Shown: piece after piece, positions 1-4,194 of the stretch | Layout: each line of letters begins with the position of its first letter | Position numbering within the stretch: position 1 is the first letter of the stretch | NCBI RefSeq assembly: GCF_021568315.1 | Contig: NZ_JAKGSI010000001.1 | Coordinates: 620,001 to 684,000 of the forward strand | Direction: 5' to 3' | DNA from: Corynebacterium uropygiale | GTDB taxonomy: Bacteria; Actinomycetota; Actinomycetes; Mycobacteriales; Mycobacteriaceae | DNA length: 64,000 nt | Translations under genes and position numbers: made by a program | The notes under the pieces: generated by a model | What the model saw: the letters and a program-made list of their open reading frames with translations, nothing else | Databases searched by the model: none | What the model was told of the DNA's origin: nothing

Positions 1-192
1 GACGGAGGAAGCGGGAGGGCTTACCTCAATCTGCTCGGAATCCTCCTCGGCAGTATTGACAGCGGGGCTCTCAATTGGCGCTGAGGCCGCCTGGTCTTCA
101 AGTGCGGCCTTTTGCTCCTCGGCCTGGAGAGTGAGTACGTCGAAGAGATCCATCTCATAAGCATTCGGATCATGACGGTTTCGACGGCGCAT
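1..192 (-). CDS. 5' end of an unknown element gene (runs off left edge)
   Basis: Sixty-four codons are open from an ATG at 192 to the window edge. The start is well supported: GGAGGA (201-206 on the plus strand as TCCTCC) lies 8 nt upstream. The visible protein opens with a basic stretch (MRRRNRHD), followed by DLFDVL and an Ala/Gln/Glu-rich, probably helical and flexible segment. I recognise no domain in this part. The gene is the last seen of a minus-strand group and has a TGACGGC repeat block (265-320) directly upstream, as the neighbouring element genes do, so it probably belongs to the same mobile element and regulon. Its function cannot be judged from the N-terminus alone. Confidence 0.6.
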   Translation of the reverse strand, partial: MRRRNRHDPNAYEMDLFDVLTLQAEEQKAALEDQAASAPIESPAVNTAEEDSEQIEVSPPASSV

Positions 193-264: not shown

Positions 265-320
265 GCCGTCAAGCCGTCATGACGGCTTGACGGCTAGCCG
301 TCCAGACGGCATGACGGCTA
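265..320. repeat. TGACGGC octad repeat block 1
   Basis: The block has several copies of the 7-mer TGACGGC and its reverse complement GCCGTCA, mostly spaced at 8 nt, including a palindrome GCCGTCATGACGGC. It lies between the start of the gene leaving the window and the terminator of the acidic-protein gene. This is typical of an operator or centromere bound by ribbon-helix-helix proteins, and such a protein is encoded at 844-1074. The binding itself is an inference. Confidence 0.75.
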
Positions 321-341: not shown

Positions 342-368
342 AAAAAGGGGAGGGCAATGTGCCCTCCC
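342..368 (-). terminator. Rho-independent terminator after the 133-aa gene
   Basis: A perfect 9-bp stem (348-356 with 360-368) with a 3-nt loop is followed, reading the minus strand, by a run of five T (346-342). It lies just downstream of the stop of the 389-790 gene and would end the recombinase-ParA-RHH-acidic protein transcript. Confidence 0.8.
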
Positions 369-388: not shown

Positions 389-790
389 CTAAAAGAGATA
401 TTGCTGTTCTTCGCGTGCCCAGTTGTCGGGGTCGTTGAGGTCGTCTTCGTCCTCCTCGGGCACCCACCTGTCGTCCTCCTCACCACCAAAGGGCTCGGGG
501 TGCTTGGCGTAATACTCACGAAGGGGCCCGTTGATGTACTCCTCGCGCACCCATTCTTCAGCGATTTGCGCGGCGCGTCCAGAAGTCGCCATGGTGCATT
601 CGGGGGTCTGCATTCCGTGACGAACTTCCGGGTGTTCCTTCCACCACTTCTCCATGAGGCCCAAGTGCAATTCGGAGAAATAGTCTGTGAAGTCATCACA
701 GGCGTCAAGATATAGCTCTTTTACGGTGTCGTCATCGTAGGGCTGGCCGAGAGTCTTCTGAACCATACGGATATCGGAAGGCGTGATCAT
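389..790 (-). CDS. acidic 133-aa element protein, copy 1 (unknown family)
   Basis: I do not recognise this protein. It is strongly acidic (about 34 Asp/Glu against 12 Lys/Arg), has no signal peptide or membrane segment, and ends in a tail rich in Glu and Asp. Fixed blocks seen in all three copies of the family are LMEKWWKEHPEVRHG, QTPECTM, EYINGPLREYYAKHPEPFGG and EEDDRWVPE. The region around residues 25-45 differs between copies. The ATG at 790 follows AAGAAAGGA at a good distance. The gene follows the RHH gene after a 53-nt gap filled with TGACGGC repeats, so it may be co-transcribed with parA and also have its own RHH-controlled promoter. An acidic DNA-mimic or a third partition factor is possible, but nothing in the sequence proves either. 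Confidence 0.8.
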   Translation of the reverse strand: MITPSDIRMVQKTLGQPYDDDTVKELYLDACDDFTDYFSELHLGLMEKWWKEHPEVRHGMQTPECTMATSGRAAQIAEEWVREEYINGPLREYYAKHPEPFGGEEDDRWVPEEDEDDLNDPDNWAREEQQYLF

Positions 791-814
791 TGTTGTGTTC
801 CTTTCTTGTAGTAA

Positions 815-861
815 GCCGTCATGACGGCTTGACGGCGTGACGGCTAGCCGTCGCGACGGCT
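815..861. repeat. TGACGGC octad repeat block 2
   Basis: This block contains direct and inverted TGACGGC units, including GCCGTCATGACGGC, in front of the 133-aa gene. The last codons and stop of the RHH gene (stop at 844) are themselves formed by the repeat, so the coding end and the presumed operator overlap. Confidence 0.75.
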
Positions 862-1074
862 CTGAGAATTATGAAGAAGATCCTCGACCAGCTCGGAGAT
901 GATCTCACGGATCGGCTTCTCTATCTGCTGAGCATAGACGTGAAGCTCGCGACGAAGATCAGCATCCATGCGGATCGTGAGCTTCGGATCATGCTGCGCG
1001 GTCCTGATCGTCTGCTTCGCCTGACTGGGGGGTGTAGCCCACTTTTTCGGGCCCATAGCACTCTTCTTACTCAT
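844..1074 (-). CDS. ribbon-helix-helix DNA-binding protein, probable ParB-type partner
   Basis: The 76-aa protein has a basic, disordered N-terminus (about residues 1-30). A beta strand around KLTIRMDAD (31-39) and two helices (about 40-67) follow, which is the layout of ribbon-helix-helix (MetJ/Arc) proteins such as ParG or omega. These bind DNA as dimers on short repeated sites and act as the centromere-binding partner and repressor of small ParA ATPases. The ATG at 1074 overlaps the end of parA by 8 bp and has GGAGG inside parA as its ribosome site, so the two are translationally linked. The TGACGGC blocks at 265, 815 and 2567 are the natural candidates for its binding sites. A decayed relative lies at 3897-4058. 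Confidence 0.8.
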   Translation of the reverse strand: MSKKSAMGPKKWATPPSQAKQTIRTAQHDPKLTIRMDADLRRELHVYAQQIEKPIREIISELVEDLLHNSQSRRDG

Positions 1075-1657
1075 CCGTAGCCTCCTCGGAGGTGAGAAAC
1101 TCAGCTACATCGTCATAGCCATGCCAGGCAACTGGCTTCATGCCCCATGAGCGTTTGATGTCCTGCCGGAGCGGAATCTGCGTAGGGATCCTCGGGGTGC
1201 GTTCATCGCGAAGGACCTCAAGAAGCTCCTCGGCCTCCTTCGTCCCGAACCTCACACTCGTGAGAAGCACGTAGGCGGTCTTCGCGTGCGCGATAGCCAA
1301 CGTATTCCACATGCGAGAGGTCTCGATAGCTGACGGGCTCGTCGGCACGATCACGAGGTCGGCAACCGAGATCGCGGTGTCGATGACGTCGGTGCCGCCG
1401 GGAGGGCAGTCGATAAGGACGAAGTCCTCGCGATAGCTCTTGCTGATGGTCCGCTTATTTGCAGGAGAGACCTCAAAGTCCAGTGGTTGGTCGTTGGCCT
1501 CAGCTTCCTCAGCCCACTCGGTCGCAGAGCCTTGCGGATCTAGATCGAGGACGCGGACGCTGTAGCCCTGCGCCGTCAAGGCGCTTGCCAGGTAGATGGT
1601 CGTGGTCGTTTTGCCAGTGCCGCCTTTAAGGTTGCACAGCGCGATGGTCGTCGTCAT
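1067..1657 (-). CDS. parA: small ParA-family partition ATPase
   Basis: The 196-aa protein is a Walker-type ATPase that segregates plasmid or element DNA. It has the deviant Walker A motif KGGTGKTTT at residues 11-19, the A' region DLDPQGS near 38-44 and the Walker B-like LIDCPPG near 81-87. It has no N-terminal HTH and is shorter than chromosomal Soj/ParA, matching the small ParA type that pairs with an RHH protein. The ATG at 1657 overlaps the recombinase stop by 4 bp (ATGA), and its end overlaps the RHH gene. The order is therefore recombinase-parA-RHH-acidic protein on one transcript. A partition module beside an integrase suggests an element that spends time as a plasmid or circular intermediate. 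Confidence 0.93.
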   Translation of the reverse strand: MTTTIALCNLKGGTGKTTTTIYLASALTAQGYSVRVLDLDPQGSATEWAEEAEANDQPLDFEVSPANKRTISKSYREDFVLIDCPPGGTDVIDTAISVADLVIVPTSPSAIETSRMWNTLAIAHAKTAYVLLTSVRFGTKEAEELLEVLRDERTPRIPTQIPLRQDIKRSWGMKPVAWHGYDDVAEFLTSEEATDE

Positions 1658-2514
1658 AGTCTGATGCCTTTCAATGATGCTGCACGGATGACTTGAGTGA
1701 GATCAATCGCCGTATCCGCGTAGCGCTGAGTTGTAGTGATTGAGGAGTGCCCGAGAGCTCTTTGCACCGCGACAAGGTCGTGCCCGGTCGCGTTATATGC
1801 GGTTGTCGCGAACCGGTGTCTGAGCGTGTGCAGTGTCCAATTGCCAGGGAGGGCTCGCGATGCCAGGTGACATACCCAACGAGGAGATAGGTGCCCGTGA
1901 TCGTTGCCAGGGAAGATGTAACCCCCATATGGGGCTAATTCCCGCATGGATGTGAGCAACGTCTCAGTAAGTGGGAGGAGGCGGGCTTTCCCGCCCTTAC
2001 CCTGCACTTTTAGGATCACGAGTCCGCCTGCTCGGATTTCAACGTCTTGGCTATGGATCCGGGAGATTTCTCCGGCCCGTAACCCCATCTCGGCCGCGAG
2101 GCGAAGGATGAGTCGGGTCCTCGGCACCGCACACGCCAGTGCTTCATCGAGTTCCGAGTCCGGTATAGGCCTCGGAGGTGGGAGTTGTCGCCTGATCGAT
2201 GAGAGGCAAACCGTGGGATTCGGGTGGTCATGCGTTCTTTCAAACCACCGGAAGAACTGCCGGAAAGAAGAGTAGTAGGAGTGCCTAGTTTCTGGGAGCC
2301 AGTTTTGCCGGCCGCACCACAGTAGTAGTTCGCTTTCTTGTATGCGAGGCGACGGGTTCTCGATGCCACGCGCAAGAGTTCGCAAGTGTGTGATGCGCGT
2401 CCTAATAGTGTCTCGTCTGCGCCCCAGAGCGACAAGAATGAGCTCGAACTCTTCGATGGCTTCCCTCCAGGCGGGAGGGACGGTGGGGCTACTTGCCCCG
2501 TATGATTGCTGCAT
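1654..2514 (-). CDS. tyrosine recombinase/integrase
   Basis: This is a site-specific recombinase of about 286 aa. The N-terminal SAM-like core-binding domain covers about residues 15-105 and the catalytic domain about 120-280. The conserved residues are visible: Arg in GLRAGEI, Lys in QGKGGKAR, His and Arg in HTLRHRF, His in LGHSS and the nucleophile Tyr in TQRYAD. The ATG at 2514 is preferred. A TTG at 2541 would add nine residues, and neither has a clear ribosome site, so the start is uncertain. Its end overlaps parA. The tRNA 3' fragment at 2701-2737, less than 200 bp upstream, is the likely attachment site. A XerC/D-like resolvase role for a multimeric element is an alternative. Confidence 0.9.
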   Translation of the reverse strand: MQQSYGASSPTVPPAWREAIEEFELILVALGRRRDTIRTRITHLRTLARGIENPSPRIQESELLLWCGRQNWLPETRHSYYSSFRQFFRWFERTHDHPNPTVCLSSIRRQLPPPRPIPDSELDEALACAVPRTRLILRLAAEMGLRAGEISRIHSQDVEIRAGGLVILKVQGKGGKARLLPLTETLLTSMRELAPYGGYIFPGNDHGHLSPRWVCHLASRALPGNWTLHTLRHRFATTAYNATGHDLVAVQRALGHSSITTTQRYADTAIDLTQVIRAASLKGIRL

Positions 2515-2566
2515 AAAATAGGTATGACACAGCAACCACAAGTGCTAAAAGACCAGGTCATAAGCG

Positions 2567-2662
2567 GGCCGTCGTGACGGCGTGACGGCCTGCCGTATAA
2601 ACGTCCGGACGGCGTGACGGCCTGACGGCTAGCCGTCGAGACGGCTTGACGGCATGACGGCT
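2567..2662. repeat. TGACGGC octad repeat block 3 (longest)
   Basis: Nearly 100 bp are built of TGACGGC units at 8-nt spacing, with a few inverted or degenerate units (GCCGTC, CCGGACGG). The block lies upstream of the recombinase-parA-RHH operon. Its length and position make it the best candidate for the partition site (centromere) as well as the operon operator. Confidence 0.8.
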
Positions 2663-2700: not shown

Positions 2701-2737
2701 AACCCAGAGGTCGTTGGTTCGAATCCAGCCCCCGCTA
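2701..2737 (+). other. tRNA 3' fragment, probable attachment site (attR)
   Basis: The stretch matches the 3' half of a tRNA: anticodon-stem strand CCCAG, variable loop AGGTC, T arm (stem GTTGG/CCAGC, loop TTCGAAT), acceptor strand CCCCGCT and discriminator A. There is no matching 5' half: the expected anticodon loop and D arm are absent upstream. By memory the best match is actinobacterial initiator tRNA-fMet. Integrases often recombine at the 3' end of tRNA genes and leave such a fragment at one end of the element. The intact gene would then lie beyond the left edge of the window. Confidence 0.7.
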
Positions 2738-2744
2738 CGAGGTC

Positions 2745-2776
2745 GTCCCCTTTCACTTCGGTGGAAGGGGACTTTT
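2745..2776 (+). terminator. terminator following the tRNA fragment
   Basis: A 12-bp stem (2745-2756 with 2761-2772, loop TTCG) is followed by TTTT. It sits just after the tRNA 3' fragment, where the terminator of a tRNA gene would be. Confidence 0.8.
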
Positions 2777-2785
2777 CCTGTCCCT

Positions 2786-2910
2786 GGGGGGTAACACGAC
2801 GGGGGAGAAGGTCCACGACGTCGAGACCGAAGAAGTCGGCCGCTGCATAGAGCTCATCGATGGCCTGGATAGCCCCCGGCTGCATCACCACGAAGCATAC
2901 GCCCGTTGCA
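2786..2910 (-). pseudogene. possible remnant of an XRE-type regulator
   Basis: One minus-strand frame here reads QAIDELYAAADFFGLD followed by VVDLLPRR. This resembles the last helices of lambda-repressor-like (XRE) HTH domains, in which a tail of the form LG-V-V-DLLP is common. No start or stop frames a gene: the frame runs on through the terminator and tRNA fragment. It is most likely a scrap left by recombination at the attachment site. The resemblance rests on a short stretch only. Confidence 0.3.
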
Positions 2911-2961
2911 AAGGGAAGGGGTCCCCCTCGTCCCTCGCTGTGAAGTGGTGTTCCTCTCTTT

Positions 2962-3363
2962 CTAGAAGAGGTATTGCTGTTCTTCGGGTGCCCAGCTGTC
3001 GAGGTCGGTGGTGTCTTCCTCGTTCTCCTCGGGCACCCACCTGTCGTCCTCCTCGCCGCCGAACGGCTCGGGATGCTTGGCGTAGTACTCGCGGAGGGGG
3101 CCGTTGATGTATTCCTCGCGCGCCCACTCAATCACGATTTCTTGGGCTTTGGTCCACGTTTCCATGGTGCATTCTGGGGTTTGCGTCCCGTGGCGAACCT
3201 CGGGGTGCTCCTTCCACCACTTCTCCATAAGGTCAGTGAGAAGTCGATCGAAGTAGTCCCCAATTTCATCTTCATAGTCGAGATACAGTTCCCTTACGGT
3301 TTCGTCGTCGTAGGGCTGACCGAGTGTCTTCTGAACCATACGGATATCGGAGGGAAATATCAT
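2962..3363 (-). CDS. acidic 133-aa element protein, copy 2
   Basis: This is a full-length paralogue of the protein at 389-790, with the same length, the same ATG context (AAGAAAGGAACACAATC before the start) and the same conserved blocks (PSDIRMVQKTLGQPYDD, MEKWWKEHPEVRHG, YAKHPEPFGGEEDDRWVPE). It differs mainly at about residues 25-45 and in the acidic tail. It lies on the chromosome side of the presumed attachment site, so it is not part of the recombinase-parA operon. No RHH gene precedes it, only a degenerate repeat remnant (3387-3407). It appears intact but may be poorly controlled. Function unknown. Confidence 0.75.
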   Translation of the reverse strand: MIFPSDIRMVQKTLGQPYDDETVRELYLDYEDEIGDYFDRLLTDLMEKWWKEHPEVRHGTQTPECTMETWTKAQEIVIEWAREEYINGPLREYYAKHPEPFGGEEDDRWVPEENEEDTTDLDSWAPEEQQYLF

Positions 3364-3386
3364 GATTGTGTTCCTTTCTTAGATAG

Positions 3387-3407
3387 AGCCGTCATGGGGG
3401 CTTGACG
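3387..3407. repeat. degenerate repeat remnant before copy 2
   Basis: GCCGTCATG followed by CTTGACG corresponds to the start of blocks 2 and 5 but has lost the further TGACGGC units. It lies at the same place relative to the downstream 133-aa gene as the intact block 2. Confidence 0.5.
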
Positions 3408-3456
3408 TGCCCCTTCTATCTAGGGAATTCGGTTCAGGAAGGGGGTTTCCTGTTTT

Positions 3457-3858
3457 CTAGAACGGGTGGTCCCGTTCTTCGCGTGCCCAGTTATCGGGGT
3501 CGTTGGTGTCTTCCTCGTCGTCCTCGGGCACCCACCTGTCGTCCTCCTCGCCTCCGAAGGGCTCGGGGTGCTTGGCGTAGTACTCACGAAGGGGACCGTT
3601 GATGTATTCTTCGCGAGCCCACTCAATAGCGATTTCTCGTGCTTTCGGCCAGGTTTCCATGGTGCATTCTGGGGTCTGCATACCGTGGCGCACCTCCGGG
3701 TGTTCTTTCCACCACTTCTCCATCAACTGCAGGTGGACTTCATCGAAGTAGTCACCGAGTTCCTCGTTGATTTCTTGGTAGAGCTCTTCAATTGTCTCGT
3801 CATCGTAGGGCTGACCGAGAATCTTCTGGGTCCTGCGGATTTCGGTGGGGCCAATCAT
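3457..3858 (-). CDS. acidic 133-aa element protein, copy 3
   Basis: This is the third paralogue of the unknown 133-aa family. The ATG at 3858 is chosen because it aligns with the starts of the other two copies and has the same AAGAAAGGA ribosome site; the open frame extends further upstream only by chance. The conserved blocks (LGQPYDDE, LMEKWWKEHPEVRHG, EYINGPLREYYAKHPEPFGG) are kept, while the segment at about residues 25-45 and the last residues (REERDHPF) differ. Upstream lies a decayed RHH gene, so this copy repeats the RHH-acidic protein order of 389-1074. It is probably an older relative of that module. Confidence 0.75.
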   Translation of the reverse strand: MIGPTEIRRTQKILGQPYDDETIEELYQEINEELGDYFDEVHLQLMEKWWKEHPEVRHGMQTPECTMETWPKAREIAIEWAREEYINGPLREYYAKHPEPFGGEEDDRWVPEDDEEDTNDPDNWAREERDHPF

Positions 3859-3881
3859 GATTGTGTTCCTTTCTTGTAGTG

Positions 3882-3906
3882 AGCCGTCATGATTCCGCGA
3901 CGGTCC
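3882..3906. repeat. degenerate repeat remnant before copy 3
   Basis: GAGCCGTCATGA followed by GCGACGG is a decayed version of block 2 at the same place, between the RHH relic and the 133-aa gene. Only one good half-unit remains. Confidence 0.5.
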
Positions 3907-4058
3907 TGGGATGGGCGAAGAAGATCCTCGAGCAGCTGAGGGCTGATCTCGCTGGTCGTCTTCTTTGTCTGGGGAGCATAGAGGGGAGGCTCGCCATGAA
4001 GGTCTGCGTCTGTTCGAATAGTGGGGTTCGAATCGCGCTGTGCAGGCCAGATCGTGTT
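3897..4058 (-). pseudogene. decayed ribbon-helix-helix gene (relative of 844-1074)
   Basis: One minus-strand frame aligns with the intact RHH protein over about 54 codons. PTIRTDADL matches LTIRMDADL, and LLEDLLRPSQDRR matches LVEDLLHNSQSRR. The DNA also aligns without obvious gaps. The relic has no start codon in frame. Helix residues are replaced by prolines and glycine (HGEPPLYAP for RRELHVYAQ), so it is unlikely to fold as a working RHH dimer. It precedes copy 3 of the acidic protein just as the intact gene precedes copy 1, which shows that the pair was duplicated or acquired twice. No parA remains next to it. Confidence 0.7.
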
Positions 4059-4194
4059 CCTCGTCCCCGGGTGGCCTGATCCCCTCGTGGCCCCTCATCG
4101 AGCTGTATCGTGGCGAAAAGGGTGGTTCTTCGCCACCACGGCAGACGCCTGGTGTCTGAGCCGCCATGTAGTTTTCTCTCCCCGGAGGCACCCC

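Follow-up and report, generated by a model that had tools for sequence, protein, structure and literature searches.

Background

The closest described relatives of the genes considered here are the delta-omega partition system (type Ib) of pSM19035, the par loci of pNG2-type corynebacterial plasmids, and phage P1 DarB together with the DarB-like polyvalent enzymes. Omega is described as binding its repeats both as a repressor at several promoters and as ParB (PMC5016525), and at least four contiguous repeats are reported to be needed (PMC9499535). DarB-like proteins appear in PMC5512222 as transferred antirestriction enzymes of ca. 2000 amino acids (aa), in which a methylase is joined to an SNF2-type helicase, in a conjugative or phage setting. 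Here we analyse 64,000 nucleotides of Corynebacterium uropygiale (the window; positions 620001-684000 of contig NZ_JAKGSI010000001.1, from a genome of 2.46 Mb), in which four genes, encoding a tyrosine recombinase (int), a small ParA ATPase, a ribbon-helix-helix (RHH) protein and an acidic protein, are the right end of a ca. 38-kb integrative conjugative element (ICE) located in a tRNA-Met gene. Taken as a whole, it is probable that this end combines an int-parA-rhh partition unit, whose octad repeats serve as parS and as operators, with a member of an acidic protein family linked to DarB.

The locus resembles the delta-omega system in its small ParA, in an RHH ParB that is here predicted to be also a repressor, and in contiguous short repeats at several promoters. 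It differs from it in having octads instead of heptads (5 to 12 repeats per array in this element), in array letters that change between elements, and in genes that are joined to a tyrosine integrase within an integrating element. The pNG2-type loci share with it the ParA-RHH pair, with RHH proteins 40-46% identical over the matched part in nine plasmids, and, in the three tested (pNG2, pCTNIH20 and pCdoos1), arrays of 8-bp pitch before parA and behind rhh; in contrast to our element, the pair is accompanied by a replication gene in these three, and the annotation shows no integrase ahead of it. As for P1 DarB, the difference is that the 5' part of the actinobacterial genes appears to carry a nested gene in the +1 frame, or that a separate acidic gene stands before them.

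The integrase-ParA-RHH unit and its octad arrays

All four genes lie on the minus strand, with overlaps of 4 bp between int and parA and of 8 bp between parA and rhh; their order, these overlaps and the 8-bp repeats, all described in an earlier note on this DNA, were borne out, and a single operon for the four genes is plausible. The start of int could be the TTG at 2541 or the ATG at 2514. The same note had the octads heading the operon, which holds for the array before int, although it is not the only one: there are three here, one of them between rhh and the acidic gene. As in type Ib partition systems, the small ParA has no N-terminal helix-turn-helix domain and is followed by an RHH protein, and short contiguous repeats in both orientations are located near the operon. 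A profile made from five RHH relatives matched ParG (E 7e-6, 1p94) as well as omega (E 6e-4, 1irq), SvtR and E73.

The octads GACGGCNN and NNGCCGTC stand in strict 8-bp register, their exact cores numbering 10 in 2568-2661, six in 815-860 and seven in 265-318, and TGACGGCT occurs 11 times in the window compared with a mean of 2.8 in shuffled sequences. A fourth array with five exact cores was found 16 kb leftward, outside the window, between two convergent genes. Pitch 8 was the best pitch in all four arrays, each score being matched by 0 of 2000 mononucleotide shuffles, and in 12 of 13 segments of par loci (our element, G380, pNG2, pCTNIH20 and pCdoos1); it was the best pitch in 7 of 300 control windows of the same sequence, with a top pitch-8 score of 0.377.

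The integrase-ParA-RHH arrangement is a recurring module, so that the link between these genes pointed out in the earlier note extends beyond this element. Of 242 genus genomes, 24 carry relatives of int, at 28 loci in all, with ParA behind int at 14 and RHH behind ParA at 12 of these. Pitch 8 was the best pitch before int in 13 of the 14 parA-bearing loci (scores reached by 0 to 2 of 200 shuffles); in the fourteenth, L247, the best pitch was 11 and the pitch-8 score was reached by 0 of 200. Among 12 int loci without parA, a set from which L249 and L251 were excluded as contig ends, pitch 8 was best in three, including L236, which resembles a true array. A second element (G380), in the same tRNA half, has int-parA-rhh-acidic-darB in the order of our element, with a darB frame that ends at 517 aa and arrays that are statistically supported at two of three places. 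No earlier report of an integrase-ParA-RHH unit was found among the titles and abstract openings listed in a literature search covering mostly papers outside subscription.

Some observations do not fit so regular a picture of the arrays. Several pitch-8 scores in par segments do not exceed the top control score, namely those of the left array (0.342) and the acidic-darB array (0.376) of our element and, elsewhere, those of the int-att segment of G380 (0.344) and of the upstream segments of pCTNIH20 (0.364) and pCdoos1 (0.335). The third gap of G380 has no significant 8-bp pitch, this pitch was found behind rhh in only 7 of the 12 loci that carry the trio, and in L240 and L241, which have int without parA and another best pitch, the pitch-8 scores were reached by just 3 and 1 of 200 shuffles. 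The weaker arrays of our element were accepted because their exact cores stand in 8-bp register.

The letters of the octads vary by element (AGACGGCA in ours, TGACCGCA in L230 and CGACCGCA in L247), and the RHH strands HLTVRVS and HLTVRIS of L230 and L247 are nearly alike. Element-specific octads, set against the RHH strands, are as would be expected for cognate RHH sites, this being a correlation and not binding. The trio and its arrays would fit a type Ib partition system of the omega/ParG kind in which int, too, is under the control of the RHH protein. It could be, on the other hand, that the octads are RHH operators only and that ParA-RHH does not partition the element, as might be suggested by the finding of the element in integrated form and by arrays at promoter positions. 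We regard this as rather unlikely, given that ParA-RHH pairs with flanking 8-bp arrays are found on true plasmids and that the fourth array lies between convergent genes.

The acidic protein family and DarB-like genes

Sequence comparisons indicate that the family of the acidic protein is mostly encoded in the 5' part of DarB-like genes, on the same strand and in the +1 frame. The gene next to the acidic gene in our element is itself of this class, in that a DNA methylase was judged to be joined to a superfamily 2 helicase: its product matches SNF2 and Helicase_C as well as PADLOC MTase_II (E 3e-10), with no Pfam methylase match, and DarB-annotated phage proteins are 27-29% identical to it over 81-89%. 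In G171 and G210, the beginning of a DarB-like reading frame or fragment contains an acidic open reading frame (ORF) in a different frame. A profile built on the first ten sequences recognised +1-frame members on which it had not been trained in L043 (4e-13), L055 (8e-12), L040 (2e-11), L044 (4e-11) and L054 (5e-9), with weaker +1 matches (3e-4 to 5e-3) in seven more loci, among them L056, which is a broken DarB. Upstream of the nested ORF of L054 (G323), another acidic-like ORF (E 0.11) was seen; the two are perhaps tandem free and nested copies.

A scan of contigs for DarB-like loci, taking the best 80 of 294 relatives, gave one locus labelled Xanthobacteraceae, the other named ones being actinobacterial. 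Identical printed DarB N-termini in one Corynebacterium genome and two Brevibacterium species (L046, L064 and L065) point to recent transfer between distant actinobacteria. In viral contigs (best 80 of 145), relatives in the +1 frame were found at 29 loci and in the +2 frame at one, some of these matches lying at the methylase start, where they may be shadows of that domain. A search for viral-contig members by the smaller alignment A1 gave nine pattern matches, none of them confirmed.

A single-sequence search of the 242 genomes gave matches in 10 at E 0.01, our own included. In plasmid pCdoos1, an acidic gene and a second, truncated one lie beside an ORF resembling the head of DarB, with par genes 7 kb away, and the acidic gene of G273 lies near a contig end. 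Against a general tie to DarB, the acidic gene of G370 stands alone in 16 kb and that of G225 lies at a contig end, both without par or DarB in the stretch read; likewise, A1 matched the wider nested family weakly (Prob 19). The comparison of profile A4 to A5 gave Prob 94.6 and E 7e-8, scores that helical composition may inflate.

The acidic protein (pI 4.23, with 34 D+E against 12 K+R) is predicted by AlphaFold2 to form helices at 4-13, 20-52 and 63-96, followed by an acidic tail that is mostly disordered (mean predicted local distance difference test score, pLDDT, 83). For the distant nested family a similar hairpin (26-49 and 58-81) with further helices is predicted (pLDDT 86). Two of the three acidic proteins of the window end in EEQQYLF (392-412 and 2965-2985), possibly a QxxLF tail motif. 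No significant family was found for the acidic protein in Pfam, PHROGs, NCBIfam or PADLOC, and no match in the fold searches reached E 0.001. TnpV (PF14198) was considered as its identity, since NCBI labels several nested ORFs in this way, and was rejected: three of ten nested relatives match the model below threshold (best E 1e-5, 25.9 bits for a cut-off of 27), whereas the window protein has no match, and a scan of our genome with the model gave nothing above cut-off.

Putative coding in two frames

Bacteria have few long, conserved genes that overlap on the same strand, and annotation rules exclude them. A dual-coding claim in darB is one of sequence statistics. In 11 of 11 Corynebacterium pairs the nested frame was more conserved than the DarB frame (72 vs 61% identity for L047/L049, 35 vs 20% for L047/L057), these being only pairs above 35% nested identity, three of which involve L056 with its broken DarB frame. 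Over 973 pairs from 82 of 98 loci, mean identity was 43.1% in the nested and 32.2% in the DarB frame, and mismatch at the nested codon positions was 0.435, 0.379 and 0.459, the DarB third position being the least variable; the set excludes pairs above 90% identity and alignments below 50 aa, and holds some genomes twice (L040/L058, L043/L059, L047/L062, L049/L082, L050/L108 and L051/L123, with identical printed N-termini). The +2 frame, treated alike, rendered 28 pairs and the opposite result, with 67.5% identity against 72.0% in the DarB frame.

The openness of the DarB frame was examined at 87 loci (89 before L065 and L130 were removed as near-duplicates), leaving out genus duplicates, L046 (same N-terminus as L064), the stand-alone L039 and L041 and the fragment L056, and counting no hits above 92% identity or below 50 aa. 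A +1 region shared with at least three other loci was present in 70, and across it the DarB frame is free of stops in 54 of the 70, compared with 9.8 (sd 2.5) expected from synonymous shuffles of the nested frame, which do not keep codon-pair context. In 43 loci it is also open for at least 15 codons upstream. This test replaced an earlier one that was partly circular, the region having been defined by the DarB frame.

At 55 of 85 loci the DarB frame has a start led by a ribosome-binding site together with a QLSLFD-type head motif (loose pattern). Around this motif, mismatch by codon position was 0.277/0.190/0.489, the codon pattern of the DarB frame (175 pairs at 45-95% identity, with the loose head pattern). 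The motif, seen in the DarB N-termini of L042, L059, L062, L077 and others, resembles the beta-clamp-binding motif QL[SD]LF. In five of five annotated plasmid records no stop interrupts the upstream extension of the helicase frame across the entire nested coding sequence (CDS), which lies at +1. The helicase starts given by NCBI drop ca. 150 or more N-terminal codons (L138 2964-3426, L139-L142), by which a QLSFEALW/QISIFD-like head is lost in four of the five, and the nested ORF is called TnpV or hypothetical. Because of the openness, the codon pattern of the head and these five open frames, it appears that DarB begins ahead of the nested gene and extends through it.

Several results must be set against coding in both frames. 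The 11 and the 973 pairs were both picked by their nested frame and aligned in it, a choice in its favour, and pairs share ancestry. When 445 pairs from 81 loci were aligned by the DarB frame across the complete upstream region, the DarB third position was the most variable (0.352/0.311/0.391), although this would be expected where the DarB frame codes too. The shared region crosses a DarB-frame stop in 16 of the 70 loci, the helicase start given by NCBI lies behind the nested CDS in all five annotated records, and at most single loci the length of the nested ORF did not differ significantly from synonymous shuffles. The length test is weak because the DarB linker itself permits long +1 frames, and the DarB start was misplaced in it at several loci. 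One could thus read the region as NCBI does, with the nested ORF preceding a shorter DarB and with a DarB frame that is open by composition, to which the low-complexity linker and the ORF lengths would lend themselves. The excess of open DarB frames, their passage through the nested CDS in every annotated record and the DarB-frame codon pattern of the head make this reading one of low probability, and we retain a DarB that includes the nested region. No earlier report of a gene nested in a darB-like gene was found, again among the titles and abstract openings listed in a search of mostly non-subscription papers, and neither "overlapping" nor "alternative frame" occurs in PMC5512222.

The acidic protein between DarB and the partition genes

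The earlier note had taken the link from integrase through ParA and RHH to the acidic protein to be fixed in one operon. This last step is not supported: a free-standing acidic gene lies within ca. 1.5 kb at 2 of the 12 trio loci (our element and G380), and a nested acidic ORF is in reach at one (G256). In this one the order is int-parA-rhh-octads (of TGGCAACA type)-darB, the acidic ORF being nested in darB behind GGAAGAGAGTAACA-ATG. The four-gene order is thus repeated in G380, but no acidic gene was found behind 9 of the 12 trios in the stretch examined.

A search by five ParA queries detected a ParA-like gene upstream of 12 of 78 DarB loci and none at the other 66, of which figures it has to be said that the upstream stretch is shorter than 4 kb at 15 of these loci (8 of 63 with at least 4 kb) and that divergent ParAs may be missed. 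By this search, homologues of the acidic protein occur mostly away from parA and rhh, an outcome that the earlier note had named as refuting its reading; the annotated plasmid records tell the contrary, as each of the five has a ParA or AAA ATPase gene no more than ca. 3 kb upstream of its nested ORF (in one case on the other strand). The par neighbourhood is therefore commoner than the query search shows, and weighs to that extent against DarB as the partner of the family. DarB remains, however, a closer partner of it than the par genes.

The proposals of the earlier note for the acidic protein fared differently. That it is a third partition factor or a copy-control protein of the par operon would be in line with its position behind rhh in our element and in G380 and with the ParA or AAA ATPase genes just mentioned. 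It is nevertheless very unlikely, because the relatives lie mostly in DarB-like genes and ParA was found upstream of few of these; in addition, no acidic gene was found behind most trios in the stretch examined, and no match to the family was found in the par stretches of pNG2 and pCTNIH20. The protein is probably not a par component. Of the proposal of an antirestriction DNA mimic, the antirestriction part comes close, though with the protein as a probable companion of DarB. A stand-alone mimic that inhibits restriction enzymes in the manner of Ocr or ArdA, and merely travels with darB, is suggested by the low pI and the disordered acidic tail, but it is unlikely: no known antirestriction family or DNA-mimic fold (Ocr, ArdA) was matched by sequence or fold, the ordered part is a helical hairpin predicted also for distant nested relatives, and the long acidic tail is limited to the three copies of the window among 19 aligned sequences. 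The acidic protein is likely to be a partner of DarB.

The three copies are under purifying selection, with dN/dS values of 0.15-0.17 among them. Because they are so although the rhh beside copies 2 and 3 has decayed, the acidic protein seems to be useful without par neighbours.

The element in tRNA-Met and other features of the window

The att repeat at the right end of the element has a second copy at contig position 584794, 37,909 bp leftward, which is part of an intact tRNA-Met gene; the two share 161 of 165 nt counted from 2703, reaching the 3' end of a regulator-like ORF. Besides the integrase and these direct repeats in a tRNA gene, the element encodes a MOBF relaxase (MobF, E 1e-72) and a TraG/VirD4 coupling protein (E 2e-28), both above cut-off, and a VirB4-like ATPase (E 1e-10) that is below its own cut-off and has no Pfam match. 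Relaxase, coupling protein and ATPase of a type IV secretion system were rated as jointly present, as in an ICE, with the VirB4-like member sub-threshold. Other cargo within the 37.9 kb comprises a cell-wall hydrolase, a serine recombinase and an AbiD-like gene (L013 1426-2226; PADLOC PD-T4-5 E 2e-15, AbiD E 4e-7).

To the right of att, 2741-4080 contains the 3' end of the regulator, two further acidic genes, both intact, a decayed rhh (Table 1) and, at 3387 and 3882, isolated octads. Both acidic genes lie beyond the interval that the earlier note had covered (389-2662). This stretch would be the remnant of a second element in tandem. An Rfam scan of the first 6000 bases of the window gave a sub-threshold match only.

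Table 1. Features located in the window, in window coordinates
Feature	Position	Strand	Remarks
Gene of 1958-aa DarB-like methylase-SNF2 helicase, 5' end	1..192	-	Continues left of the window (L013 2316-8192)
Octad array C	265..319		7 exact cores; between acidic gene and darB-like gene
Terminator-like hairpin 3' of acidic gene	348..368	-	Consensus scan: 3 sites found vs 2.1 expected
Acidic 133-aa protein	389..790	-	Stand-alone member of a family otherwise apparently nested in DarB-like genes
Octad array B	814..861		6 exact cores; between rhh and acidic gene; covers last 18 bp of rhh
RHH protein, predicted centromere-binding protein/repressor	844..1074	-	76 aa, pI 9.8; profile match to ParG, omega, SvtR; PHROG Arc-like
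Small ParA ATPase	1067..1657	-	196 aa; AAA_31/CbiA; PHROG ParA-like partition E 9e-40
Tyrosine recombinase (integrase, int)	1654..2541	-	PF00589 E 6e-23
Octad array A	2568..2662		12 positions, 10 exact cores; upstream of int
att repeat	2703..2737	+	35 bp, 3' half of tRNA-Met
Acidic gene copy 2	2962..3363	-	77% identical to copy 1; right of att repeat; dN/dS to copy 1 0.15
Acidic gene copy 3	3457..3858	-	73% identical to copy 1; dN/dS to copy 1 0.17
Decayed rhh copy	3861..4063	-	68% identity over 227 alignment columns to rhh region

Proposed function and significance

The following mode of action can be proposed. The three genes int, parA and rhh would form a type Ib partition unit with a built-in integrase, in which the RHH protein binds the octads and the arrays act both as centromere (parS) and as operators, the latter in front of int-parA-rhh, the acidic gene and darB. 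In the integrated state the RHH protein would repress these three transcription targets, whereas upon excision or entry RHH and ParA would partition the circle, and relief of repression would allow DarB and its acidic companion to protect the DNA. Partition of the circle, expression of int and antirestriction would be run by one repressor, because the arrays would serve as parS and as operators. The acidic protein would most probably bind or regulate DarB, for instance by keeping it inactive on host DNA or by loading it for transfer. We propose more tentatively that the 5' part of darB in actinobacterial conjugative elements entirely encloses a conserved +1 gene of some hundreds of bases with its own start, whose product is an obligate partner of DarB, and that this gene has been freed, brought under octad control and triplicated here; that the change went from nested to free is a guess.

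The putative overlap is common to many actinobacterial plasmids and integrative elements, with nested, adjacent and free forms, which makes it a direct test case for the origin and escape of overprinted genes, and it suggests that the antirestriction enzyme DarB has a so far unrecognised partner. The int-par unit with its changing octads is a ready set for working out how RHH proteins recognise DNA. If the proposal is true, a single RHH protein sets integrase, partition and antirestriction together.

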